From positions 4,712,001-4,776,000 of the forward strand of contig NZ_LT629740.1 in NCBI RefSeq assembly GCF_900105165.1: a DNA stretch of 64,000 nucleotides, given 5' to 3'. Below, one piece after another: positions 1,432 through 21,297 of the stretch (its first letter is position 1; each line of letters starts with the position of its first letter). The DNA is from Mucilaginibacter mallensis (GTDB lineage: Bacteria > Bacteroidota > Bacteroidia > Sphingobacteriales > Sphingobacteriaceae). The translations under genes and the position numbers were made by a program. The notes below the pieces were generated by a model. That model searched no databases. It was not told where the DNA came from and worked only from the letters and a program-made list of their open reading frames with translations.

Positions 1432-2554
1432 AAAAGTAATGCTTTTTAGTTTACAAACGTTCAGCACAACGGGCGGCATTCAAAAAATGACCCGCACGCT
1501 TGCGCATTCTCTATACCATGTCGCCAAAGAAAATAACTGGGATTTTAAAATGCTTGCGGCCTATGATGCAGATCATGACCTGATGCCGCAATACCTGCCC
1601 TCAGAAAATTTCAGGGGCTTTAACTCAAACAGGATTAGCTTTGTGCTACAATCGCTAAAAGAAGCAGCAAAGGCTGATGTTATTATATTAAGCCATATTA
1701 ACCTGGCATTTATTGGCGTAATTATAAAAACAATTAACCCAAAATGTAAGGTATGGCTCATAGCGCATGGTATTGAGGTTTGGCGGCCGTTATCAAAGTT
1801 AAAAAAAGTACTTTTATCAAAATGCGATAAGGTTATATCCGTGAGCAATTTCACACGGCAGCAGGTAATTACAATGCATAATGCTGATGCGGCCAAAAGC
1901 TTTGTTTTAAACAACGCGATAGATCCTTTCATGAAATTGCCGCATACATTTTCAAAACCGCAAAGCCTGCTTACCAAATATGGTTTAACCGGTAACGAAC
2001 CTTTAATATTTACCCTAACAAGGCTGGCAGCCTCGGAGCAATACAAGGGTCATGAGCAGGTTATAAAAGCTATAGGCAAACTAAAAAACAAATTACCAGC
2101 TATTAAATATATGCTCTCCGGGCAATATGATACTGAAGAGGGCATACGCATAAAAGAACTTATAGCAGCAAATAACGTACAAGAGCAGGTAATATTAACG
2201 GGCTTTGTAGCCGAAAAAGATTTGTCTGATCATTTTTTGTTAGCCGATCTGTTTGTGCTGCCCAGTAAAAAGGAAGGTTTCGGAATTGTGTTTATTGAAG
2301 CGCTGGCATGTGGCCTACCCGTTATTTGCGGTAATGCCGATGGCAGTATTGATGCCATACGCAACGGCGAACTGGGCAAAGCAATTGATGTAAACAACAT
2401 AACCGAACTGGAAGAGGCAATAACCGAAAGCCTAAAAGTGCCGCTAACATTACAACAACGCGAAAATCTGCAGCAACAATGTTTGCTTCATTTTAATGAA
2501 CAGGATTATATGAATAAATTACAGCAATTATTAAATGACGGATCAATCAGCTAA
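1424..2554 (+). CDS. Glycosyltransferase family 4
   Basis: Cytoplasmic retaining glycosyltransferase of the GT-B fold. The N-terminal Rossmann half opens with a strand followed by a Gly-rich loop (TTGGIQKMTR). The C-terminal half holds the nucleotide-sugar site, with the E-x7-E signature in EGFGIVFIEALACG near residues 283-296. The 376 aa length is usual for GT4. The start overlaps asnB by 8 bases and the end overlaps the exporter permease by 20 bases, so translation is probably coupled. Donor and acceptor cannot be read from the sequence. Confidence 0.88.
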   Translation: MSKKVMLFSLQTFSTTGGIQKMTRTLAHSLYHVAKENNWDFKMLAAYDADHDLMPQYLPSENFRGFNSNRISFVLQSLKEAAKADVIILSHINLAFIGVIIKTINPKCKVWLIAHGIEVWRPLSKLKKVLLSKCDKVISVSNFTRQQVITMHNADAAKSFVLNNAIDPFMKLPHTFSKPQSLLTKYGLTGNEPLIFTLTRLAASEQYKGHEQVIKAIGKLKNKLPAIKYMLSGQYDTEEGIRIKELIAANNVQEQVILTGFVAEKDLSDHFLLADLFVLPSKKEGFGIVFIEALACGLPVICGNADGSIDAIRNGELGKAIDVNNITELEEAITESLKVPLTLQQRENLQQQCLLHFNEQDYMNKLQQLLNDGSIS

Positions 2555-3404
2555 TAAAGAGCATTGGGATATTGAGATCAGCGCTAAAAGCAGTCTGCTT
2601 GACCTAAAGCTGAAGGATACCTGGCATTACCGCGACCTGCTTTTTCTGCTGGTACGCCGCGATTTTGTATCATTTTATAAGCAAACCATATTGGGCCCGC
2701 TTTGGTTTTTTATACAGCCCATAGTTACCATTTTAATTTATAACCTGGTATTCAGCAACCTGGCCGGTATAAAAACGCCGGGGGTACCAGCCCCGCTCTT
2801 CTATTTGGCAGGCACTATCCTCTGGAATTATTTTTCAGATTGTCTTACAAAAACATCCACCGTGTTTAAAGATAACGCGGCCATGTTGGGTAAGGTTTAT
2901 TTCCCAAGGCTTATTATGCCCTTAAGTATTGTGCTATCAAATCTGGTAAGATTTGCTGTTCAGTTCATTTTATTTATAGTACTCATCGGCATTTATTATG
3001 CAAAAGGCATTGTTCTTATTCCAACCGGTATAATATTGCTATTTCCTTTGCTTATCATTCTTATTGCGGCTCTGGGTCTTGGTTTAGGCATGATCATATC
3101 AGCTGTTACCACAAAATACCGCGATCTGGCCTTTGTGGTGACATTCGCTGTGCCTTTGTTAATGTATACTACTACCGTTATTTATCCCTTATCAACCGCT
3201 ATTACTAAATATCCCAAATACAGCTGGATAATAAAATATAACCCCGTAACCCCAGTGATCGAAACTTTCAGATATGGATTCTTCGGCACCGGTGATTTTA
3301 CCTGGGGCCTGTTAGGATATAGCTGTGCAGTAACTGCTGTTATACTCTTTTTGGGTATAGTTATTTTTAATAAAGTAGAAAGAACCTTTGTTGATACCGT
3401 GTAA
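2535..3404 (+). CDS. wzm: Polysaccharide ABC exporter, permease subunit (Wzm type)
   Basis: Inner-membrane half of an ABC-2 type exporter that moves undecaprenyl-linked polysaccharide or teichoic-acid-like glycan out of the cytoplasm. It is 289 aa with a cytosolic N-terminus, the family motif KDTWHYRDLLFLLVRRDF ahead of the first helix, about six hydrophobic segments (around residues 55-80, 90-110, 130-155, 160-190, 205-225, 255-275), and a conserved QTILGPLWFFIQP stretch. The stop overlaps the ATPase start by one base (TAATG). The pairing with the next gene makes the assignment firm. The cargo is inferred from the neighbouring glycosyltransferases. Confidence 0.9.
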   Translation: MTDQSANKEHWDIEISAKSSLLDLKLKDTWHYRDLLFLLVRRDFVSFYKQTILGPLWFFIQPIVTILIYNLVFSNLAGIKTPGVPAPLFYLAGTILWNYFSDCLTKTSTVFKDNAAMLGKVYFPRLIMPLSIVLSNLVRFAVQFILFIVLIGIYYAKGIVLIPTGIILLFPLLIILIAALGLGLGMIISAVTTKYRDLAFVVTFAVPLLMYTTTVIYPLSTAITKYPKYSWIIKYNPVTPVIETFRYGFFGTGDFTWGLLGYSCAVTAVILFLGIVIFNKVERTFVDTV

Positions 3405-4648
3405 TGACTAAAGTTATAAAAGCAGAAGGGCTGTCAAAAGCATACCAGTTAGGCGATTTTGGTACAGGCACCGTCTCGCGCGATCTGGAGCGCTTTTGGG
3501 CACGGATGCGTGGAAAAGAAGATCCCTTTCTTAAAATTGGCGAAACAAACGACCGTACAGTAAAAAGCGAAAGCGATATTGTATGGAGTATAAAAGACAT
3601 GAACTTTGAGATTGAACAGGGTGATGCCGTGGGCATTATTGGCCGCAATGGCGCAGGCAAAAGCACACTGCTTAAAGTACTAAGCCGCGTTACCTCCCCT
3701 ACAACAGGCTCCGTAAAAATAAAGGGCCGTATAGCAAGCTTGCTCGAAGTTGGTACAGGCTTTCACCCTGAATTAACCGGGCGTGAAAACATATTTTTAA
3801 ATGGTGCCATACTTGGCATGCGCAAAACCGAGATCAAACGCAAGTTTGATGAGATAGTAGCATTTGCCGGGGTTGAACGTTATATTGATACTCCTGTAAA
3901 ACGCTACTCATCGGGTATGTATGTGCGCCTGGCTTTTGCAGTTGCAGCGCATTTAGAATCAGAAATTCTTATAGTTGATGAAGTATTAGCCGTAGGCGAT
4001 GCTGAATTTCAAAAGAAATGCCTGGGCAAAATGGGCGACATCAGCAAAGGCGAAGGCAGAACAGTATTGTTTGTGAGCCACAATATGGGTGCTGTAAATT
4101 CACTTTGCACCAGCGGTATCTATTTAAAAAATGGTATGATCGAAAAACGGGGCGATATCGTTTCTGTTATACAACACTATAATTCGGTTAACCAAACGCT
4201 GTCTGCCGCCAATAGCTCAACTTCTTCAAAACCTCAGATCACCCAGGTGGTAATTGATGCTGATGAGATCATAAATGGCAATTTAAAGTGCACTGTATTC
4301 TTTAATTCACCATTTGTAATCGACTCGCCGAATGTGGGTGTGGTAATTAAAACAGCATTTGGCAATCCTGTATTTGGCACAAATTTTAAGCTTCACGCAC
4401 TTAACCATACTAATACACCTGTACAAAATGGCCAGGCTACACTGTTTGTTCCTGATTTGCCATTGCATTACGGAACTTACTTGTTAAGTGCCTTTTTAGG
4501 CGATGATCAAACCGATTTTGATCTGAAAATAGATTATTTAACTTTTGATTTCTTCCCTAAAAACAAATTGCTGCACCAATATAATATCGAAGATATTGGC
4601 GCAGTTCAGGTTAATGCCGATTGGTCGCTTTTAGCCGATCGCACTTAA
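3404..4648 (+). CDS. wzt: Polysaccharide ABC exporter, ATP-binding subunit (Wzt type)
   Basis: Energises export of the glycan through the preceding permease. The nucleotide-binding domain has Walker A GRNGAGKST at about residues 79-87, a signature YSSGMYVRLAFA near 168, Walker B ILIVDEVLAVGD near 188-199, and the switch histidine in FVSHNMG. An insertion of about 25 residues after the first strand (FWARMRGKEDPFLKIG) is common in Wzt/TagH proteins. After about residue 255 comes a beta-rich domain of about 150 residues ending at 414. This matches the Wzt C-terminal domain, which in characterised systems recognises the modified non-reducing end of the chain. The one-base overlap with the permease indicates coupled expression. 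Confidence 0.92.
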   Translation: MTKVIKAEGLSKAYQLGDFGTGTVSRDLERFWARMRGKEDPFLKIGETNDRTVKSESDIVWSIKDMNFEIEQGDAVGIIGRNGAGKSTLLKVLSRVTSPTTGSVKIKGRIASLLEVGTGFHPELTGRENIFLNGAILGMRKTEIKRKFDEIVAFAGVERYIDTPVKRYSSGMYVRLAFAVAAHLESEILIVDEVLAVGDAEFQKKCLGKMGDISKGEGRTVLFVSHNMGAVNSLCTSGIYLKNGMIEKRGDIVSVIQHYNSVNQTLSAANSSTSSKPQITQVVIDADEIINGNLKCTVFFNSPFVIDSPNVGVVIKTAFGNPVFGTNFKLHALNHTNTPVQNGQATLFVPDLPLHYGTYLLSAFLGDDQTDFDLKIDYLTFDFFPKNKLLHQYNIEDIGAVQVNADWSLLADRT

Positions 4649-12099: not shown

Positions 12100-12205
12100 G
12101 GTATTTCAATATAAACGAGTAAAACCTCCTATCACTTTTATTGAATTATTAAAAAAGGGCTGCGTGCCATTTTACGAAAAAAAATATTCTTCTCAGCCAA
12201 ATTGA
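12089..12205 (+). pseudogene. Possible 3' remnant of a lost gene upstream of the next glycosyltransferase
   Basis: In the gap after the FkbM gene one frame stays open from 12089 to a TGA at 12203-12205. It has no plausible start. It reads RVKPPITFIELLKKG then CVPFYEKKYSSQPN. The TGA overlaps the following TTG start by TTGA, the same stop-start geometry as intact gene pairs here. The pattern of hydrophobic and charged residues recalls the C-terminal end of RgpF/rhamnan-synthesis-like proteins (PT..W..L...G.PF.K), but this resemblance is from memory and weak. A chance open stretch of 38 codons is possible. Confidence 0.3.
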
Positions 12206-13488
12206 AACGCGTACTCATCATCTCACCTTGCCTTCCACCAATAAATGCTGCCGATATGCAGCGGGTACGCATGAGCTTACCTTATTTCGAGGATTGTGGA
12301 TGGGTGGCAGAAGTAGTTACGGTTGATCCGCAATATGTAGATATGGTTAAGGATGATCTATTATTAAAGAGCGTTCCCCCTGATATTAAAATACATACGG
12401 TTAAGGCCTTTGATAAAAAATGGACATCAAAACTGGGCCTAGGCAGTATCGCTTTACGTTCATTATGGTTTTATAAACAAAAAGTTAACGCGCTGCTAAA
12501 AGAACAGAAATTCGACCTGATCTACTTTTCTACAACCCAATTCCCGGTGAGCATATTGGGCGCATATTGGAAAAAACGGTTTAACATCCCTTATGTGATC
12601 GACATGCAGGACCCATGGCATTCAGAATATTACCGCAATAAACCTAAGGCCGAACAACCTTCAAAATATTGGTTCTCCTATCGTTTAAATAAAACCCTTG
12701 AACCCATCGCTGTGAAACACGTGGGCGGTCTTATTAGTGTATCGGTAAGCTATATAGAGGATTTAAAAAACAGATATCCGCAAATAAAGGACATCCCATC
12801 ATCCGTAATAACATTTGGTGCATTTGAACCTGACTTTAAAATTGCTGCTGAAAATGCTGATAAATTTAATCCATTATTAGATCCGGGGTTCACTAACCTG
12901 GTTTACATAGGTCGCGGTGGTTACGATATGCAAAGGGCAATTGATTTTCTGTTTAAAGCATTTAAAGCCGGAATGAAAACCGATGCCAATAACTTTCAAT
13001 CAATAAAGATGTACTTTATTGGTACAAGTTATGCACCTGCAGGTGGGGGAAAACAAACCATTATGCCCCTGGCTAAACAATATGGTATTGAAAACAATGT
13101 TATCGAAATTACCGACCGCATAAGTTATTACCATACCCTTGCAACCTTAAACCAGGCCGATGCATTATTTATTCCAGGTTCCGACGATCCTAAATACACA
13201 GCATCAAAAATATATCCATACCTGTTGGCTAAAAAGCCTTTGCTCACTATATTTCACGAAAACAGCAGTGCCAATAATGTATTGAGAACCTGTTGTGACA
13301 ACGCGTCGGTACAAACTTTCCCAACCCGGGAAGGTGAAATCACAAGCAACATAACCGGTTTCCTTACCGGGCTGGCAAAAAAGGAGTTGCCCGCCGTTAT
13401 ATTAAAAGATGAATTTGACCGGTATAGCGCCGCCGCAATGACTGAAGCGCAAATCGCGCTGTTCAATAAAGTACTGACCAAAAAATGA
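12202..13488 (+). CDS. Glycosyltransferase (GT4-like)
   Basis: A 428 aa GT-B type enzyme. The N-terminus KRVLIISPCLPPINAADMQRVRM is the acceptor-side opening seen in many Bacteroidota GT4-like sugar transferases. It continues with YFSTTQFPVSILGAYWKKRF and VIDMQDPW. The C-terminal half has LVYIGRGGYDM and a donor-side segment FIPGSDDPKYTASKIYPYL. The start is TTG at 12202 (MKRVLI); an ATG would only come after the first strand. The end overlaps the next gene by 4 bases (ATGA). Confidence 0.8.
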   Translation: MKRVLIISPCLPPINAADMQRVRMSLPYFEDCGWVAEVVTVDPQYVDMVKDDLLLKSVPPDIKIHTVKAFDKKWTSKLGLGSIALRSLWFYKQKVNALLKEQKFDLIYFSTTQFPVSILGAYWKKRFNIPYVIDMQDPWHSEYYRNKPKAEQPSKYWFSYRLNKTLEPIAVKHVGGLISVSVSYIEDLKNRYPQIKDIPSSVITFGAFEPDFKIAAENADKFNPLLDPGFTNLVYIGRGGYDMQRAIDFLFKAFKAGMKTDANNFQSIKMYFIGTSYAPAGGGKQTIMPLAKQYGIENNVIEITDRISYYHTLATLNQADALFIPGSDDPKYTASKIYPYLLAKKPLLTIFHENSSANNVLRTCCDNASVQTFPTREGEITSNITGFLTGLAKKELPAVILKDEFDRYSAAAMTEAQIALFNKVLTKK

Positions 13489-14627
13489 AAAAGCTGGCCA
13501 TAATTACTACGCACCCCATTCAATATTACTCGCCGGTATTTAAATTACTGCACCAAAGGCAGCAAATTGAGATTAAGGTTTTTTATACCTGGGGCGAAGG
13601 CGCCGTGAATAAATTTGATCCGGGCTTTGGCAAAACGGTACAATGGGACTTGCCATTGCTCGATGGCTATCCTTATGAGTGGGTTATCAATACTTCAAAA
13701 AATCCGGGGTCACATAGCTTTAATGGTATTATAACCCCTGGTTTAATTCAGCAAATAAAAGACTATGCCCCTGATGCTATACTAATTTACGGATGGGCGT
13801 ATGCCAGCCATTTAAAGGTGCTCAGGCATTTCAAAAACAAAATACCCATTATATTCAGGGGCGATTCAACCTTGCTCCGTAAAGAAGGTGGTTTTAAAGC
13901 GTTGCTAAAATTTGTTTTATTAAGGTGGATATATACCCATGTTAACCATGCCCTGTATGTGGGCACAAACAACAACGCTTATTTTAAAAAGTATGGCCTA
14001 AAGGAACAACAGCTTAGCTTTGCACCTCATGCCATAGATAATGAAAGATTTGCACAAAAAAGGAATGATGAGGTAAAAGCGCTGCGTGATGGATTAGGCC
14101 TCGATGATAATGACATACTTATTTTATTCGCCGGCAAATTTGAAGATATAAAATCTCCTTTTTTATTGCTTGATGCCTTTCAATCAATAAATAAAGAAAA
14201 TGTTCATCTGCTGCTTGTTGGCAACGGGGCATTGGAAAATGAATTAAAACTGAAAGCAGCCGAAAATCCTAATATTCATTTTATGGGTTTTCAAAATCAA
14301 TCTTATATACCGGTTGTGTACCAGGCATGCGATCTTTTTTGCCTGCCATCAAAATCAGAAACCTGGGGGCTTGCTATAAATGAAGCTATGGTATGCCAAA
14401 AAGCTGTTTTGGCATCAGATAAAGTTGGCTGTGCCATTGATTTGATTCTCCCTGGTAACAACGGAGCCATATTTAAAGAATCATCATTAGCTGATTTGGT
14501 CTTACAATTGAATAACTTAGTCGAGAAAAACACAGACGGTTTAAAATCAATGGGCAAATCATCCAAACAAATAATTAACGACTGGAATTTCGAAAAACAA
14601 GCCCAGGCAATTGAAAAAGCTGTATAA
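13485..14627 (+). CDS. Glycosyltransferase family 4
   Basis: Retaining GT-B glycosyltransferase of 380 aa. The opening KKLAIITTHPIQYYSPVFKLL is characteristic of a Bacteroidota/Cyanobacteria GT4 subgroup. The donor domain has ILFAGKFEDIKSPFLLLDAF and the E-x7-E signature SETWGLAINEAMVCQKAVLAS near residues 286-306. It overlaps the upstream gene by 4 bases, and the next gene starts at the base after its stop. Its position just before the Wzy-like gene and near the exosortase-like fusion suggests these genes act together. Confidence 0.87.
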   Translation: MKKLAIITTHPIQYYSPVFKLLHQRQQIEIKVFYTWGEGAVNKFDPGFGKTVQWDLPLLDGYPYEWVINTSKNPGSHSFNGIITPGLIQQIKDYAPDAILIYGWAYASHLKVLRHFKNKIPIIFRGDSTLLRKEGGFKALLKFVLLRWIYTHVNHALYVGTNNNAYFKKYGLKEQQLSFAPHAIDNERFAQKRNDEVKALRDGLGLDDNDILILFAGKFEDIKSPFLLLDAFQSINKENVHLLLVGNGALENELKLKAAENPNIHFMGFQNQSYIPVVYQACDLFCLPSKSETWGLAINEAMVCQKAVLASDKVGCAIDLILPGNNGAIFKESSLADLVLQLNNLVEKNTDGLKSMGKSSKQIINDWNFEKQAQAIEKAV

Positions 14628-16028
14628 ATGAAACACGTTTCGTTTGAAAGGTACTTAATTCTGTACGTGCCATGGGTGCTTGCGCTATTGTTTCAATCAA
14701 TGCCTGCAGTGTCCTATCTTATTGCATGGCTCGGTTCATTCTTTATTTTTTTCCTTGTATACACAGGCAGAATAAAACCTTTACCTACCGATCGTACCAT
14801 CGCTGAACAGATTATGCGGCCTATCTTCATAGTCCAAATCATCTTTGTTGGGTATATGGCCTGTTCGTCTATCTTTTACTTTTTAAATTTATACGGGTAT
14901 GATAACTTTCATAAAACAAATGAATATCTTCTGGTAGATCAAGACAAATTGGCACTCGTGGCTCAATGCCAGCGGTATTACATATTGGGCCATGCCGCTC
15001 TTGTTACTGGCATGCTGATATTTATGAAATACCCTGTCGAAACAAAATACTATATTGAAAAAGAAAAAATGGCTAATATGGTTCTGATAATGGCCCTGAT
15101 AGCCTTTCCTGTATCCCTGTTTTTCTTAAATGTTCCTGGCTTAACCCAATTTTATTATCAATTAAACTCATTGAGCTTTATTGCCGGCACGCTGGCATTA
15201 GCATTTGCCATCCCACTACAAAAAATATGGAACACTATTATATGCCTGGTATTGTATTGTTTCAACTTTTATCAAGGGGTAATTTCCGGTTATAAGGAAC
15301 CTATTATAATAAGTGTTATGGTGTTAGGTCTCTTTCTATATCCGAGCTATAAAAAAATAGTTCTGGTAGTATTTGTTCCGGCATTATTACTATTATTCGT
15401 GATACTTCCTAAGTTCGCTGCCACATTTCGCCAGAATGCATGGTCGGGTGAAACACAAGCTGATGAAGCCACAGCTCTTGCTCTTGACGCGGCGCTGAAT
15501 GATGATTCAAAAGATGGAACAAACTGGGATTTCCTGGTTAACAGGCTCAGCGAAATAGATATGTTTACCGTATACGTCCAGTCTACCCCCCAAAATATTG
15601 ATTATTACGGCTTTCAGTTATTAAAGCAATCGGCAATAGTACTTGTACCCCGTATATTCTGGCCCGGAAAACCAATCACCGAAGATCTGGTAATGGAACG
15701 GGTATATGACGCCGGGGCGGTGAACAGAAATTCACAGGTTTCGGCCAAGCCAGCTTATATAGTAGATACTTACCTCTCAGGAGGCACCTTCGGTGTGTTT
15801 ATCGGCCTTTTTCTGTATGGTGCCATAGCCTCGGCTATCTCTGTTAAAGCCGAGAAGCTTTTTGGCGGATATACCTTAGGCACAGCCCTCATTTTTACCG
15901 GTCTGTTCCAGATATTTTGGCGGGGACTTAGTTTTGAATTCCTGATCAACTCCGTTTTTTGGGGTTATATCAGTATGCTTGTCATAGCTAAAATTCTTAC
16001 AGCAACTAAAATTTTAAAAGAGATTTGA
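14628..16028 (+). CDS. Wzy-like polytopic membrane protein (polysaccharide polymerase candidate)
   Basis: A 466 aa inner-membrane protein with about 10-12 hydrophobic segments, for example residues 8-45, 65-90, 115-130, 145-170, 180-195, 200-240, 240-265 and 375-460. A large loop at about residues 265-375 contains RQNAWSG and ends near PRIFWPGKP. This layout of many helices plus one long periplasmic loop with conserved Arg/Pro is that of O-antigen polymerases and ligases. It directly follows a GT4 and precedes another by a 4-base overlap. NCBI describes a Wzy-like protein associated with exosortase Y in this phylum; the linked exosortase-like gene fits, but I could not check the match. Confidence 0.65.
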   Translation: MKHVSFERYLILYVPWVLALLFQSMPAVSYLIAWLGSFFIFFLVYTGRIKPLPTDRTIAEQIMRPIFIVQIIFVGYMACSSIFYFLNLYGYDNFHKTNEYLLVDQDKLALVAQCQRYYILGHAALVTGMLIFMKYPVETKYYIEKEKMANMVLIMALIAFPVSLFFLNVPGLTQFYYQLNSLSFIAGTLALAFAIPLQKIWNTIICLVLYCFNFYQGVISGYKEPIIISVMVLGLFLYPSYKKIVLVVFVPALLLLFVILPKFAATFRQNAWSGETQADEATALALDAALNDDSKDGTNWDFLVNRLSEIDMFTVYVQSTPQNIDYYGFQLLKQSAIVLVPRIFWPGKPITEDLVMERVYDAGAVNRNSQVSAKPAYIVDTYLSGGTFGVFIGLFLYGAIASAISVKAEKLFGGYTLGTALIFTGLFQIFWRGLSFEFLINSVFWGYISMLVIAKILTATKILKEI

Positions 16029-17161
16029 AAATACTTCAGATCAGCGCATCATATAAACCGGCTTATATCTATGGCGGCCCAATCATGTCGGTGTCAATGC
16101 TGGCCGAGCAATTATCCAAATTAGAGGCGGAAGTAACCGTTTTTACCACTACGGCTAATGGATTAAACGAATTACCTGTTAATACAAACCAACCTGTATT
16201 TATTGATGGCGTAACTGTTATTTATTTTAAACGCATAACTAAAGACCATACCCATCTCTCACCTGCCCTGCTAAAAAACGTTTGGCAAAAAGCCAGGGAT
16301 TATGATGTTGTTCATATCCATGCCTGGTGGAACCTGGTTTCCATGCTATCATGCCTTATAGCGGTAATGCGCAATGTAAAAGTTGTTGTATCACCAAGGG
16401 GAACACTTAGCAACTATTCATTCAACAACAAAAACAACGGCATAAAAGGATTAATACATACCTTTTTAACAAAGCCATTGCTTAAAAAATGTGATATCCA
16501 TACTACTTCTGATAATGAATATTCAGCAGTTAAAAGTATCATCCAGGCCAAACACATTTTTAATATCCCCAACTTCATCCGGCTTAATGTAAATAAGCAA
16601 TATGCGGTTGTACCTTCTATCGACCATATCAAACTAATTTTTCTTTCCCGAATAGAAGAAAAAAAAGGGTTGGACATTCTGTTTGATGCGCTTAAAGACG
16701 TTCAGATACCATATAGGCTAACTATTGCCGGTGATGGCAATAGTGATTATATTAAGTCGCTTAAAGCAATCGCTGTAAATAATAATATTGATGCACATAT
16801 AGATTGGATAGGCTTTCAAAGCGATAATAAGTTTGATCTGCTGCATGAGCATGACCTGCTTGTACTGCCATCACATGATGAAAACTTTGGCAACGTAGTT
16901 ATCGAAAGCCTGAGTGTGGGTACAGCAGTATTAATAAGCGAACAGGTGGGCTTGGCTGATTATGTGGTTACTAATAACTTAGGCTGGATATGCCAAACAA
17001 ATGCCTCTTCAGTAAGTGCTGCAATCAGCACCATTAACAGCAGGTTTGATGAATTACAGCGAATAAGAAAGGAAGCGCCTGCAATTATTTTAGAGGATTT
17101 TAACTATAACAACATGGCCGTAAAATATATAAATATGTACAATCAAATAATTACAAAATGA
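16025..17161 (+). CDS. Glycosyltransferase family 4
   Basis: GT-B retaining transferase of 378 aa. It begins MKILQISASYKPAYIYGGP with the glycine loop GGPIMSVSMLAEQLS. The donor-site part has LIFLSRIEEKKGLDILFDAL and the E-x7-E signature DENFGNVVIESLSVG near residues 283-297. The start is TTG at 16025, overlapping the Wzy-like stop by 4 bases (TTGA). The end overlaps the methyltransferase by 4 bases (ATGA). Both couplings support a shared pathway. Confidence 0.88.
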   Translation: MKILQISASYKPAYIYGGPIMSVSMLAEQLSKLEAEVTVFTTTANGLNELPVNTNQPVFIDGVTVIYFKRITKDHTHLSPALLKNVWQKARDYDVVHIHAWWNLVSMLSCLIAVMRNVKVVVSPRGTLSNYSFNNKNNGIKGLIHTFLTKPLLKKCDIHTTSDNEYSAVKSIIQAKHIFNIPNFIRLNVNKQYAVVPSIDHIKLIFLSRIEEKKGLDILFDALKDVQIPYRLTIAGDGNSDYIKSLKAIAVNNNIDAHIDWIGFQSDNKFDLLHEHDLLVLPSHDENFGNVVIESLSVGTAVLISEQVGLADYVVTNNLGWICQTNASSVSAAISTINSRFDELQRIRKEAPAIILEDFNYNNMAVKYINMYNQIITK

Positions 17162-17781
17162 GTGAGTATAAAGAATTCGGATACGAAAACGCTGATCCTT
17201 TTCACACATTCTTTTATATTAAAAAGGAGTTGCTCCCGCTGCTGAATAAAGACACCAATAAATGCATTTTGGATATGGGTTGTGGCAATGGCTATATGGC
17301 TAACTACCTGATATCAAAAGGATTTAACGTTTATGGTACTGATGCTTCTGAAGACGGTATCGCAATTGCCCGTCAGCAACACCCCGACCGTTTTTTTATC
17401 CAGGATTTTTCAACGGATGAATTACCGGAAGAATTGAAAGGGATTACATTTGATACCATCATCTCAACAGAAGTAATTGAACATTTGTATGATCCCTTTC
17501 AGTTTGCCGAACTGTGCCACAAGATATTAGACAAAAGCAAAGGTGAACTGATATTAACCACCCCTTACCATGGCTATTTAAAAAACCTGCTATTAAGTAT
17601 ATTTGATAAATGGGATAAGCACATCGACCCTTTATGGCAGGGCGGGCATATCAAGTTCTGGTCGAAGAAATCAATTACACAATTGTTAAACGAACGCGGT
17701 TTTAAGGTAACTGATTTTAGAGGCTGCGGCAGGCTGCCCTACTTATGGATGACGATGATGATAAAAGTAAAAGTAGCGTGA
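17158..17781 (+). CDS. Class I SAM-dependent methyltransferase
   Basis: A 207 aa small-molecule or glycan methyltransferase. Motif I is ILDMGCGNGYMANYL near residues 39-53, the acidic end of strand 2 is YGTDASEDGI, and motif post-I/II appears as FDTIISTEVIEHLYDP near 102-117, resembling UbiG-type enzymes. It overlaps the upstream GT4 by 4 bases and the downstream fusion gene by 4 bases if the latter starts at its GTG. In this context it likely methylates a sugar or lipid intermediate, which is inference. Confidence 0.85.
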   Translation: MSEYKEFGYENADPFHTFFYIKKELLPLLNKDTNKCILDMGCGNGYMANYLISKGFNVYGTDASEDGIAIARQQHPDRFFIQDFSTDELPEELKGITFDTIISTEVIEHLYDPFQFAELCHKILDKSKGELILTTPYHGYLKNLLLSIFDKWDKHIDPLWQGGHIKFWSKKSITQLLNERGFKVTDFRGCGRLPYLWMTMMIKVKVA

Positions 17782-19184
17782 CAGATAAGTTTTCGGTTAT
17801 TGTTTTAACTTATAACGAAGAGCGCAACATCCGGGCCTGCCTGGAAAGCCTGCAGCCGCTAAATGTTGCCATATTTATTGTTGATTCCGGCTCTACCGAT
17901 AAAACGCTGGAGATTTGCAGCGAATATACTGCCAATATTTTTCATCACCCTTTTGAAAACTATAGCGTTCAAAGAAACTGGGCCTTTAATAACCTCCCGA
18001 TAACTACCGGCTGGGTACTCAATCTTGATGCCGATCACCGGGCTACTCCTGAACTTGCGACTGAACTCACTGCTACATTTAACCAGCCTATAGATACTGA
18101 TATTAACGGTTTCCTGGTGAGCCGCAGAACTATGTTTATGGATAAATGGATAAAACATGGCGGCCACTACCCTACCTATCATGCCATACTATTCAGAAAA
18201 GGTTTTGGCCAGTGCGAGAATAAGCTATATGATCAGCACTTTAAAATAACCGGTAAAACCAAAATTTTAAAAGGTGATATGATAGATATTATCACCGAAT
18301 CATTAAATACTTTTATTGCAAGGCATAACCATTGGGCAACTCTTGAAGCGGAATACTTGATCAGTACCGCTAATGATGACACCGTAAATGGTGAGGTGAT
18401 AAAAGCCAAATTAACCGGCAACCCCATTGAGCGCAGACGTTACATTAAAAAACAATATGAAAGCTTCCCGCTGTTTGTAAGGCCCATTGTGTACTTTATA
18501 ATCAGGTATTTTATTCGATTAGGATTTTTGGATGGAACAGAAGGATTGATCTTCCATTTTTTACAGGGTTTCTGGTTCCGTTTTTTGATTGACGCCAAAA
18601 TTTATGAAAAAAGGAAAAAGGCAGGCAAAGCTTCAGGTTCAAATCAAATAATCAAGTTTATTTTCTCGTTCATATTTTTGTTCCTGGTCTTCTATTTTTT
18701 TAATATCATGTTTTTTGGGCTTACCAGCCAGGGTAATCACTACAGCCCCTTTTTAGCAGAGCACTTAAACTACATACAAGGTTTGCGTTCTTTATTATTG
18801 AGTACCAGCGCATCTATATTAAATATGCTGGGCTTTACGGCTATTACCAGTAATACCGAAATGCTGGTTGTCGGGCACCAGGCCATACAGGTAGTATACT
18901 CCTGCCTTGGCTTGGGTATTATCAGTTTCTTTACGGCATTTGTGCTGGCATACCCTAAACCATTAAAAAAGAAACTGATCTTTATTGCAGCGGGTATCTT
19001 TATCATTGAACTTTTAAATGTGATCCGTTTTGTATTGCTGGGTTTGTATTGGAATAAAAATGCCGCTAAAACTATCGACCATCATACACTATTTAATATC
19101 TTTATCTATATAATTATAGCTATAAGCTTGTATTTTTGGATAAAGAACCCTGTAACCGAAAACAAGGAGCATGCAGCAAACTAA
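17778..19184 (+). CDS. Glycosyltransferase family 2 fused to an exosortase-like membrane domain
   Basis: Two-domain protein. The first about 270 residues are a GT2 of the WaaE/KdtX type, with FSVIVLTYNEERNIRACLESL, VDSGSTDKTLEI and the metal site LNLDADHRATPEL. After a basic linker the last about 180 residues hold four to five helices with the exosortase/archaeosortase triad: Cys in VVYSCLGLG, Arg in NVIRFVLLG, and His in TIDHHTLFN (codons at 18903, 19026 and 19080/19083). I chose GTG at 17778 because it overlaps the preceding stop by 4 bases (GTGA) and directly precedes the first strand; an in-frame ATG at 17745 would add an unusual MDDDDDKSKSS and a 37-base overlap. Exosortases cut C-terminal sorting tags; no tagged substrate is seen in this window. 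NCBI's exosortase Y group is a likely match, unverified. Confidence 0.8.
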   Translation: MTDKFSVIVLTYNEERNIRACLESLQPLNVAIFIVDSGSTDKTLEICSEYTANIFHHPFENYSVQRNWAFNNLPITTGWVLNLDADHRATPELATELTATFNQPIDTDINGFLVSRRTMFMDKWIKHGGHYPTYHAILFRKGFGQCENKLYDQHFKITGKTKILKGDMIDIITESLNTFIARHNHWATLEAEYLISTANDDTVNGEVIKAKLTGNPIERRRYIKKQYESFPLFVRPIVYFIIRYFIRLGFLDGTEGLIFHFLQGFWFRFLIDAKIYEKRKKAGKASGSNQIIKFIFSFIFLFLVFYFFNIMFFGLTSQGNHYSPFLAEHLNYIQGLRSLLLSTSASILNMLGFTAITSNTEMLVVGHQAIQVVYSCLGLGIISFFTAFVLAYPKPLKKKLIFIAAGIFIIELLNVIRFVLLGLYWNKNAAKTIDHHTLFNIFIYIIIAISLYFWIKNPVTENKEHAAN

Positions 19185-19722
19185 TCTTTCGGCTTATAAT
19201 AATTACCCTTTTCATCCCGGTGGCAACCCGCTGAAAAGGATAGTATGGTTTTATATTAATGCTGTAGTTTTTAAAACCAGCCTATTGCCGGTTAATAGCA
19301 TTAAGGTGTTCTTACTCCGTTTATTTGGGGCTAAGATCGGTAACAACGTAACTATAAAACCCTGTGTAAACATTAAATACCCCTGGTTTTTAACCATAGG
19401 CGATGAAACATGGATCGGCGAAAACGTGTGGATAGATAACCTGGTAATGATTACCATAGGTGCTAACGCCTGCCTTTCGCAGGGTGCATTATTACTTACA
19501 GGCAGCCACAACTATAAAAAATCAACTTTCGATCTGATAACAGGCAGTATAATTTTAGAGGATGGTGCCTGGATAGGTGCGCAGGCTATAGTGAACCAGG
19601 GCGTTACCGTTGCCAGTCATGCGGTACTTACCTCGGGTTCGGTAGCCACTAAAGACCTCGCGGCATATGCCATTTACCAGGGAAACCCTGCGGTAAAAGT
19701 AAGGGAGCGGATTATAAATTAA
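19171..19722 (+). CDS. WcaF-type colanic-acid acetyltransferase family protein
   Basis: Hexapeptide-repeat O-acetyltransferase of 183 aa acting on a polysaccharide precursor with acetyl-CoA. The N-terminal YPFHPGGNPLKRIVWFYIN and VFLLRLFGAKIG are typical of the WcaF/maltose O-acetyltransferase branch. Repeats such as IGENVWIDN, IGANACLSQGALLLTGSHNY (with the catalytic His) and IGAQAIVNQGVTV follow, and it ends YQGNPAVKVRERI. It overlaps the fusion gene by 14 bases. Confidence 0.85.
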   Translation: MQQTNLSAYNNYPFHPGGNPLKRIVWFYINAVVFKTSLLPVNSIKVFLLRLFGAKIGNNVTIKPCVNIKYPWFLTIGDETWIGENVWIDNLVMITIGANACLSQGALLLTGSHNYKKSTFDLITGSIILEDGAWIGAQAIVNQGVTVASHAVLTSGSVATKDLAAYAIYQGNPAVKVRERIIN

Positions 19723-19728
19723 TTTATT

Positions 19729-21297
19729 TTGCAAAAGATCAGCACACATAGCATTATTCTCATTATCATCGGCATAATTACCGTGGGGTTGGGAATAATG
19801 ATCTTTATTGATCCACCTTCTATTTACCCCGATCCCAGCCATGGCTTCCAGGTGCTGCGCTCCATGCAAATGGGCAGCAAATTCAATATGCTGGTAAGCC
19901 CTAATCAGGATGATATCTCAAAAAACAACTCCGACTTTTTAACCTGGTGGTCGCCGGGGCAATATTTGATCCCTTATTGGTTCAAACTATTATTTGGTCT
20001 AAACACCGGCCGTGCATCGGCACTGCTCATTATTATTTTTCAGTTGTCAGGCTTAGCCGGTTTTTATTGTTTTTTCAAAAAAATAGGGTTCACATCGCTT
20101 GTATCAGCCATTAGCCTGGTGCTTATTATTTGCCAGCAGGCATTTATCATTCCCTACATCTTTTATAGCGGCGGCGAGATTTTGATCTTCGGCTTCGAAG
20201 GCTGGTTTTTATACGGATGTATCGCAATAGAGAAACCAGGCATCAAACTATTACTATTTGTACTGCTATCCGGCTGGATAGGCTTTTTATGCAAATCATC
20301 ATTTATGTGGGTGTATGTAGCCGGGCTCGCATGCCTTTGGCTGCGCCTGTCTGCAATTAAAAGCCGGCTTAACATTCAGCACTTAATTAAGAACGGTATA
20401 TGGCTCGCCATTCCGGCTGCCATATCGCTTGCGGCCATTTATGTTTTTTTCCTGTCGAAAGGCGCTAACCCTGCATCAAATTCAACCGGATTTACGGCAA
20501 GCTGGCAGGCTATCGGTTTCCCACTAGGCTCACCCCTGCTTTCAGGCTTTTCGGTTGACGACCTTTTACATGGCTTAATATTTCACCAACCCGGTAATAC
20601 CTTAACACCTGCTTATGTATTGCCTATTTTACTTTTAACGGTGTTGGTAAGCTTGATCTTGATTTTGGCCATTGTGCGTTATGTGCCTAAAAATAATTAC
20701 CGCTTGTTCATAATTGTTTTTTACGTTATATCGGTATTATTTTTTAGCGTCGCATTTTTGCGTCAGCTTAATATCTCCTATGAGAGCCGCCACTTCCGCA
20801 TCCTAAGCCTGATGCTGGCGCCTGGGATCATTTATTTGTTTAGCAAATTCAAACCAGTATATCAGATTCTTTTTGGGTTGATATGTCTTTACATAGCTTT
20901 TATTAACTATTCAACCCTGGCACGAATTCATGAGGTGAATAGCCTGAGTGCGAGGGGAAATACAGGAATAGCGCAGCAATCCATCGATCAGCCATCATTA
21001 GATTATGTATTGCAGCTTGATAAGCAAAACACCAATGCTATATTCGCTTTCACAACACCTGATGTTGGTTTGGAAATAGAACACAACCGCATCATCACGC
21101 TCGATCAGCCGCCGGCAAATATTCCTTTTGATAATGATGATTATAGCTATGATGGTCACGCCGGACCATTATACATTGTACTGCCCGCAAGTTATGACGG
21201 AGCACAGGCTAGTATGATTATGAAATTCTTCCGGGGGTATAAGGACTTCTCCATTCAAAAACTTAGCCCGATGTACACGTTGTACTCGGCTAAGTAA
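19729..21297 (+). CDS. Large integral membrane protein, possibly GT-C type glycosyltransferase
   Basis: A 522 aa protein with about 11-12 hydrophobic helices, for example 8-27, 95-115, 120-145, 150-170, 180-205, 215-240, 300-325, 335-350 and 370-395, and a soluble C-terminal tail of about 120 residues. The first periplasmic loop (IDPPSIYPDPSHGFQVLRSM) carries Asp residues where GT-C enzymes keep their catalytic acid, and WWSPGQYLIPYWF resembles the same class. I do not recognise a named family. The start is TTG at 19729. It is the last gene of the polysaccharide operon and is convergent with obgE, with only 18 bases between them and no visible hairpin. Confidence 0.55.
   Translation: MQKISTHSIILIIIGIITVGLGIMIFIDPPSIYPDPSHGFQVLRSMQMGSKFNMLVSPNQDDISKNNSDFLTWWSPGQYLIPYWFKLLFGLNTGRASALLIIIFQLSGLAGFYCFFKKIGFTSLVSAISLVLIICQQAFIIPYIFYSGGEILIFGFEGWFLYGCIAIEKPGIKLLLFVLLSGWIGFLCKSSFMWVYVAGLACLWLRLSAIKSRLNIQHLIKNGIWLAIPAAISLAAIYVFFLSKGANPASNSTGFTASWQAIGFPLGSPLLSGFSVDDLLHGLIFHQPGNTLTPAYVLPILLLTVLVSLILILAIVRYVPKNNYRLFIIVFYVISVLFFSVAFLRQLNISYESRHFRILSLMLAPGIIYLFSKFKPVYQILFGLICLYIAFINYSTLARIHEVNSLSARGNTGIAQQSIDQPSLDYVLQLDKQNTNAIFAFTTPDVGLEIEHNRIITLDQPPANIPFDNDDYSYDGHAGPLYIVLPASYDGAQASMIMKFFRGYKDFSIQKLSPMYTLYSAK

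Follow-up and report, generated by a model that had tools for sequence, protein, structure and literature searches.

A GT2-exosortase Y fusion of Mucilaginibacter mallensis and a family of small tagged proteins, its predicted substrates, encoded beside T9SS adhesins

Gene content of the locus

The window, i.e. the whole stretch of 64,000 nucleotides of Mucilaginibacter mallensis DNA that was analysed, carries a polysaccharide locus. Its first genes are Wza-like, Wzc-like and NusG-like and precede the window; the locus ends at position 21297. The following genes were assigned:

2535-3404, + strand: polysaccharide ABC exporter permease (Wzm-like), from its sequence; precedes the ATPase gene, same order in genomes G328 and G100
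3404-4648, + strand: polysaccharide ABC exporter ATPase (Wzt-like), from its sequence and the conserved locus order
12202-13488, + strand: GT4-like glycosyltransferase (PF13439, weak match)
13485-14627, + strand: GT4 glycosyltransferase (PF00534)
14628-16028, + strand: exosortase Y-associated Wzy-like polymerase (NF046084, 734.7 bits, cut-off 420)
16025-17161, + strand: XrtY-associated glycosyltransferase XYAG1, GT4 (NF046085, 558.6 bits, cut-off 400)
17158-17781, + strand: SAM-dependent methyltransferase (PF13489), homologues in loci L010, L016, L036 and L031
17778-19184, + strand: GT2-XrtY fusion gene, GT2 at about residues 1-285 (PF00535) and exosortase Y at residues 289-455 (NF046083)
19171-19722, + strand: WcaF-family O-acetyltransferase (PRK10502, 237.4 bits, cut-off 192)
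19729-21297, + strand: membrane protein whose C-terminal domain spans about 100 aa; final gene of the locus

A previous, sequence-only reading of this DNA had placed the fusion gene in a polysaccharide operon and had pointed to the Wzy-like and glycosyltransferase partner genes known for exosortase Y (XrtY) in this phylum. Both partners score above cut-off with their NCBIfam models, which confirms this setting. The genes on either side of the fusion overlap its ends. Homologues of the upstream methyltransferase gene adjoin split GT2-xrtY gene pairs as well, and the acetyltransferase is the conserved next gene, found in the same place in L007, L010, L016, L031, L151 and the Pedobacter duraquae locus L214. 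The product of the last gene has no match in Pfam or NCBIfam. Its C-terminal domain stands alone elsewhere, as a small secreted protein encoded in the same place (L010:2581-3042, L016:2588-3022).

Domains and predicted active site of the fusion

The fusion gene is a single uninterrupted ORF of 468 aa. Its GTG codon at 17778 falls where the homologues also start; translation might alternatively begin at an ATG at 17745. Residues 6-124 match Pfam Glycos_transf_2 (65.6 bits, cut-off 23.3), and this match together with D84-A-D86 agrees with the GT-A fold and DxD motif expected of a GT2 enzyme. The motifs D36, D41 and D84-A-D86 are invariant across 27 fused homologues. The Foldseek matches fall on the GT2 half (SunS, TarP, WrtF, chondroitin polymerase), and a sequence search found no solved structure for the exosortase half. 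The latter matches Pfam Exosortase_EpsH in residues 294-449 (27.0 bits, cut-off 25.7), and the fusion scores 49.3 (cut-off 23) with TIGR04178, the general exosortase/archaeosortase signature. Comparison with exosortase HMMs had been proposed as a check, and it identified exosortase Y: the NCBIfam model exosort_XrtY, which spans the 168-residue exosortase part only, gives 228.5 bits against a cut-off of 160. By this score and by its partner genes, the domain is assigned to the known family exosortase Y. Exosortase Y is described together with its Wzy (NF046084) and XYAG1 (NF046085), and the window holds the same domain and partner genes, all above cut-off. The fusion state, the tag and the adhesin partner described below are additions of the present analysis to the NF046083 family definition.

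The sequence-only reading had also seen Cys, Arg and His in an exosortase-like domain joined in one frame to GT2. The ORF, the two domain matches and the conservation of these residues bear it out. In the alignment, Cys376, Arg417 and Asp434-His435-His436 are invariant across the 27 fused homologues, and Cys-Leu-Gly, Asn..Arg and Asp-His-His are seen throughout 57 homologues, fused or split. Hydropathy gives four hydrophobic segments (287-318, 369-393, 398-425 and 435-459). Since Lys/Arg-rich loops lie on one side of these segments, Cys376, Arg417 and His435/436 are predicted at the periplasmic face of the membrane, with GT2 in the cytoplasm. Conserved Cys, Arg and His at the outer face, as predicted here, are what is expected of an exosortase or archaeosortase. 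In an AlphaFold2 model of middling confidence (mean pLDDT 75.7, pTM 0.50), Cys376 and His435 begin helices and Arg417 lies near a helix end.

Fused and split GT2-xrtY genes

Among 69 loci from named genomes, GT2 and xrtY are fused in 28, while another 29 carry them as an abutting, mostly overlapping gene pair (from 107 bp overlap to 26 bp gap). Against these 57 fused or abutting cases, L151, where a tag gene is inserted between GT2 and xrtY, is the sole interrupted pair among Sphingobacteriaceae-type loci with the upstream side covered. The more distant exosortases of Chitinophagaceae have no adjacent GT2. On the best XrtY tree about seven switches between the fused and the split state are counted, at least two of them forced by well-supported branches. 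Because fused and split forms alternate, what is general is the GT2-xrtY pairing, and fusion is one form that it takes. The view of the fusion as a special invention was rejected accordingly, and the weight which the sequence-only reading had put on the fusion itself must be lowered, half of the homologues being two separate genes.

So many relatives with two genes might also hint at an assembly or frameshift artefact. This is refuted by the same open fused frame in 28 other records from Mucilaginibacter and Pedobacter and, in the family search, in several other genera, and we give it practically no credence. Genome G048 holds two near-identical xrtY copies, each in two frames with a stop (C8:419976-420544 and C23:57626-58194).

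A family of tagged precursors

The sequence-only reading had proposed a scan for co-occurring proteins with a hydrophobic helix and a basic end, and such proteins were found. Run over related genomes, the PID-CTERM model gave weak full-length matches to small ORFs in genomes with XrtY and without XrtX. Mucilaginibacter genomes with XrtY carry such tagged precursors, and 48 of the genus, secreted proteins of 65-123 aa, were collected. In these a signal peptide and some 15-25 acidic Gly/Pro/Asp-rich residues lead to the motif C-P-L-D-T-W, after which come a hydrophobic helix and basic residues. The P and D of the tag are invariant; all 48 have a Cys at most four residues before the P as well as the basic tail, and 45 have two Cys. 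The predicted mature peptides are acidic, have a median length of about 17 residues and usually contain two Cys. None of ten tagged precursors scanned against NCBIfam scored above any cut-off.

In the system of the related exosortase X and PID-CTERM (NF046081, NF046080), the precursors are likewise secreted and very small, with a P-[IL]-D motif ahead of a hydrophobic helix and a basic terminus. Unlike PID-CTERM, the XrtY tags have Cys just before the P and W/Y after D-T. They reach at most about 25 bits with the PID-CTERM model (cut-off 26), many without any match, and judged by sequence the XrtY tag looks like a family outside PID-CTERM, though built alike. A sister tag, C-P-[LI]-D-D-Y, occurs in Mucilaginibacter genomes G301 and G344; in the latter, three sister-tag genes flank wzc.

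In M. mallensis itself the candidate substrate is a protein of 73 aa (G000:C1:816363-816584, - strand, equal to L079:2364-2585, - strand). Its gene lies 3.9 Mb away from the window, 13 bp behind that of a 1211-aa T9SS adhesin (L227:10599-14234, - strand). Neither the window nor the region immediately ahead of the locus contained a tag gene. The genome also encodes an XrtX-like exosortase (132 bits, cut-off 170), its gene directly behind two small PID-CTERM-type precursors (L005, G000:C1:2620119-2623388). XrtX genes adjoin PID-CTERM genes in related genomes too. G065, from another family, has a cluster of XrtX, T9SS adhesin and PID-tag genes next to one for a Wzc-like protein.

A literature search, with most subscription papers outside its reach, found nothing relevant on XrtY, its substrates, XrtX or PID-CTERM. 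As far as searched, the XrtY tag family and its link to T9SS adhesins appear to be undescribed; an earlier mention is possible.

T9SS adhesins as gene partners of the tag

In Mucilaginibacter, 40 of the 48 tag genes lie within 345 bp downstream of a large gene that encodes a T9SS type A sorting domain at its C-terminal end, 35 of them within 60 bp. The Por secretion tail PF18962 was present at the C-terminus of all 20 partner adhesins tested, and the partner in M. mallensis scores 30.0 bits (cut-off 23) with TIGR04183. The 23 large partners examined form one family, homologous over about 600 C-terminal residues. In most members Pfam recognises only the T9SS tail in this adhesin module. Compared with PDB, the module profile matches RemZ (E 2.4e-21). 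RemZ is a T9SS substrate, and RemZ and RemA are adhesins of the type 9 secretion system (PMC10994853). The Mucilaginibacter adhesins have in common with them the module before the sorting domain and the type A sorting domain; they differ in their length of about 1000-2260 aa, in being often arrayed and in the attached gene of an exosortase-tagged mini-protein.

Arrays of adhesins are common, with one tag gene at or near one end, and second adhesin copies as well as most adhesins within arrays lack a tag gene of their own. M. mallensis encodes a second RemZ-like T9SS adhesin of 1148 aa with no tag gene adjoining (L326:3869-7315). Adhesin-tag pairs also occur in three further genera. In Pedobacter duraquae DSM 19034 the locus reads GT2, xrtY, acetyltransferase, adhesin, tag gene, adhesin, tag gene, adhesin.

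The adhesin-tag pairs in L332, L339, L092 and L097 repeatedly have as neighbours a putative NAD synthase gene and the gene of a small lipoprotein, at a chromosomal site that is conserved. In G070, of a distant family, a 211-aa Asn/Tyr/Gly-rich protein with a PID-like tag is encoded behind two giant T9SS proteins (L350:9862-10497).

Co-occurrence and linkage of the tag with XrtY

In a family sample of 69 Mucilaginibacter genomes, with tag presence defined by E below 1e-5, the tag was found in 45 of 47 genomes with XrtY and in none of 22 without. In both of the remaining genomes with XrtY, G301 and G344, the sister tag is present. In another sample, restricted to genomes at least 90% complete, the table of XrtY and tag was 32/1/1/16 (both, XrtY only, tag only, neither), and the adhesin module was present in 33/33 genomes with XrtY versus 1/17 without. 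XrtY is clustered on the rpoB tree of the genus, where about three changes leave two to three independent contrasts, and the co-occurrence of XrtY and tag is not significant once relatedness is allowed for. For this reason genus co-occurrence was dropped as proof of the pairing; the main grounds for it are linkage and the way the tag is built. Co-occurrence points equally to XrtY and to other genes of its operon.

Linkage is provided by Pedobacter (genus group g53, taken as Pedobacter). In 39 of 43 of these genomes sister-tag genes lie less than 60 kb from xrtY, at a median distance of 37 kb. This distance equals the length of the polysaccharide locus, the tag genes lying at its opposite end from xrtY. 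In most Pedobacter genomes the tagged proteins are paralogues of 100-190 aa encoded beside wza/wzc of the XrtY locus. In G328 at least seven tag genes stand in tandem after wza, and at the far end GT2 and xrtY are separate genes side by side. G361 and G276 have similar arrays beside wza, on a contig other than that of the xrtY match. In G100, which belongs to a third genus, the XrtY locus is complete and a single tag gene adjoins its wza/wzc. Taken together, the pairing of XrtY and tag is well supported. The tandem arrays of Pedobacter (L207:14246-18391, L208, L210, L344, L345) encode Cys-containing proteins with diverse bodies beginning near G-C.

Two genomes have the adhesin and the tag but no exosortase of any kind: G040 (99% completeness; pair at L136, G040:C8:58000-70000) and G012 (83% completeness). 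The pair in G040 may be an orphan substrate or reflect a recent loss.

Discussion

We propose, with a probability of roughly 0.7, that XrtY cuts the tagged mini-proteins and attaches the resulting peptide to an acceptor that may be a glycolipid made by GT2, and that the peptide serves T9SS adhesins. The adhesin copies that lack a tag gene of their own and the genomes G040 and G012 count against this proposal. The substrates would be short Sec-exported precursors whose C-terminal tag has the motif C-P-[LIV]-D-[TSDN]-[WY] ahead of a hydrophobic helix and a basic tail. We infer that XrtY cleaves this tag; Cys376, Arg417 and His435-436 would act at the periplasmic face and cut at or near P-L-D. 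By analogy with archaeosortase A, the cut peptide would then be passed to an amine or hydroxyl of the acceptor. The conserved coupling of GT2 and xrtY suggests that this acceptor may be a lipid-linked sugar of the same locus, built by the GT2 partner. The sequence-only reading had raised the idea that the GT2-XrtY product attaches a glycan or glycan carrier to a tagged protein, and such a step might indeed take place. In Mucilaginibacter the peptide probably anchors, retains or matures a RemZ-like adhesin on the surface.

Archaeosortase A removes its tag in a Cys-dependent manner and its substrates become lipid-anchored; its gene neighbours PssA/PssD make the lipid acceptor, and a Cys thioester has been proposed (PMC7157517). 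Archaeosortase A is coupled to a phospholipid enzyme and XrtY to GT2, and their tags differ. These findings weigh on the question of whether XrtY does more than cut. It might merely release a short soluble peptide, a signal or an adhesin cap, with no glycan or lipid joined and with GT2 serving the polysaccharide only. The very short mature peptides and the evident task of a GT2 in a polysaccharide pathway would suit such a role. We nevertheless regard it as rather unlikely, since archaeosortase A substrates end up on a lipid made by neighbouring genes and the strict GT2-xrtY coupling, broken in L151 alone, looks like the same logic.

Still less probable, in our view, is a role of the tag as a plain membrane anchor, in which case the mini-proteins would be accessory membrane proteins of the T9SS with no connection to XrtY, merely co-inherited with it in one lineage. 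The phylogenetic clustering of XrtY and the adhesin-tag pair of G040 are in line with this, but it does not account for the linkage of tag genes to xrtY in Pedobacter and a third genus, for the sister tag in just those two Mucilaginibacter genomes that lack the first tag, or for an invariant P-x-D before helix and basic end resembling PID-CTERM beside XrtX. The constant position in a polysaccharide locus and the fusion to GT2 could finally mean that the exosortase domain no longer handles proteins and now serves polysaccharide export as the membrane portion of a glycosyltransferase. With Cys, Arg and His conserved and tag genes in the same loci, we hold this to be very improbable.

The proposal that XrtY processes tagged peptides for adhesins may be compared with XrtF of Flavobacterium johnsoniae, like XrtY a Bacteroidota exosortase; the fusion scores only 54.9 bits (cut-off 90) with the XrtF model. 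Without XrtF no zorbs are formed, and biofilm and surface colonisation are strongly reduced, as in T9SS mutants; the substrates of XrtF were left to future work (PMC10936215). The resemblance of this defect to that of T9SS mutants fits a role of exosortase-processed peptides for adhesins. As a tentative and rather doubtful extension, Bacteroidota exosortases such as XrtY and XrtX might form a two-system surface assembly, in which the exosortase places short Cys-containing peptides on a glycolipid or polysaccharide from its own locus. Giant RemZ-type adhesins, delivered separately by the T9SS, would then find in these peptides their dedicated anchors or partners in maturation.

Bacteroidota commonly possess exosortases, and a strain deleted for one of these enzymes, XrtF, is strongly impaired in biofilm and surface colonisation (PMC10936215). 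For the protein-sorting enzyme XrtY, substrates that were apparently undescribed before become testable. With a concrete tag, a substrate gene per genome and a partner adhesin, cleavage, acceptor and function can be addressed directly. Exosortase and T9SS, two sorting systems studied apart until now, would thereby become tied to each other.
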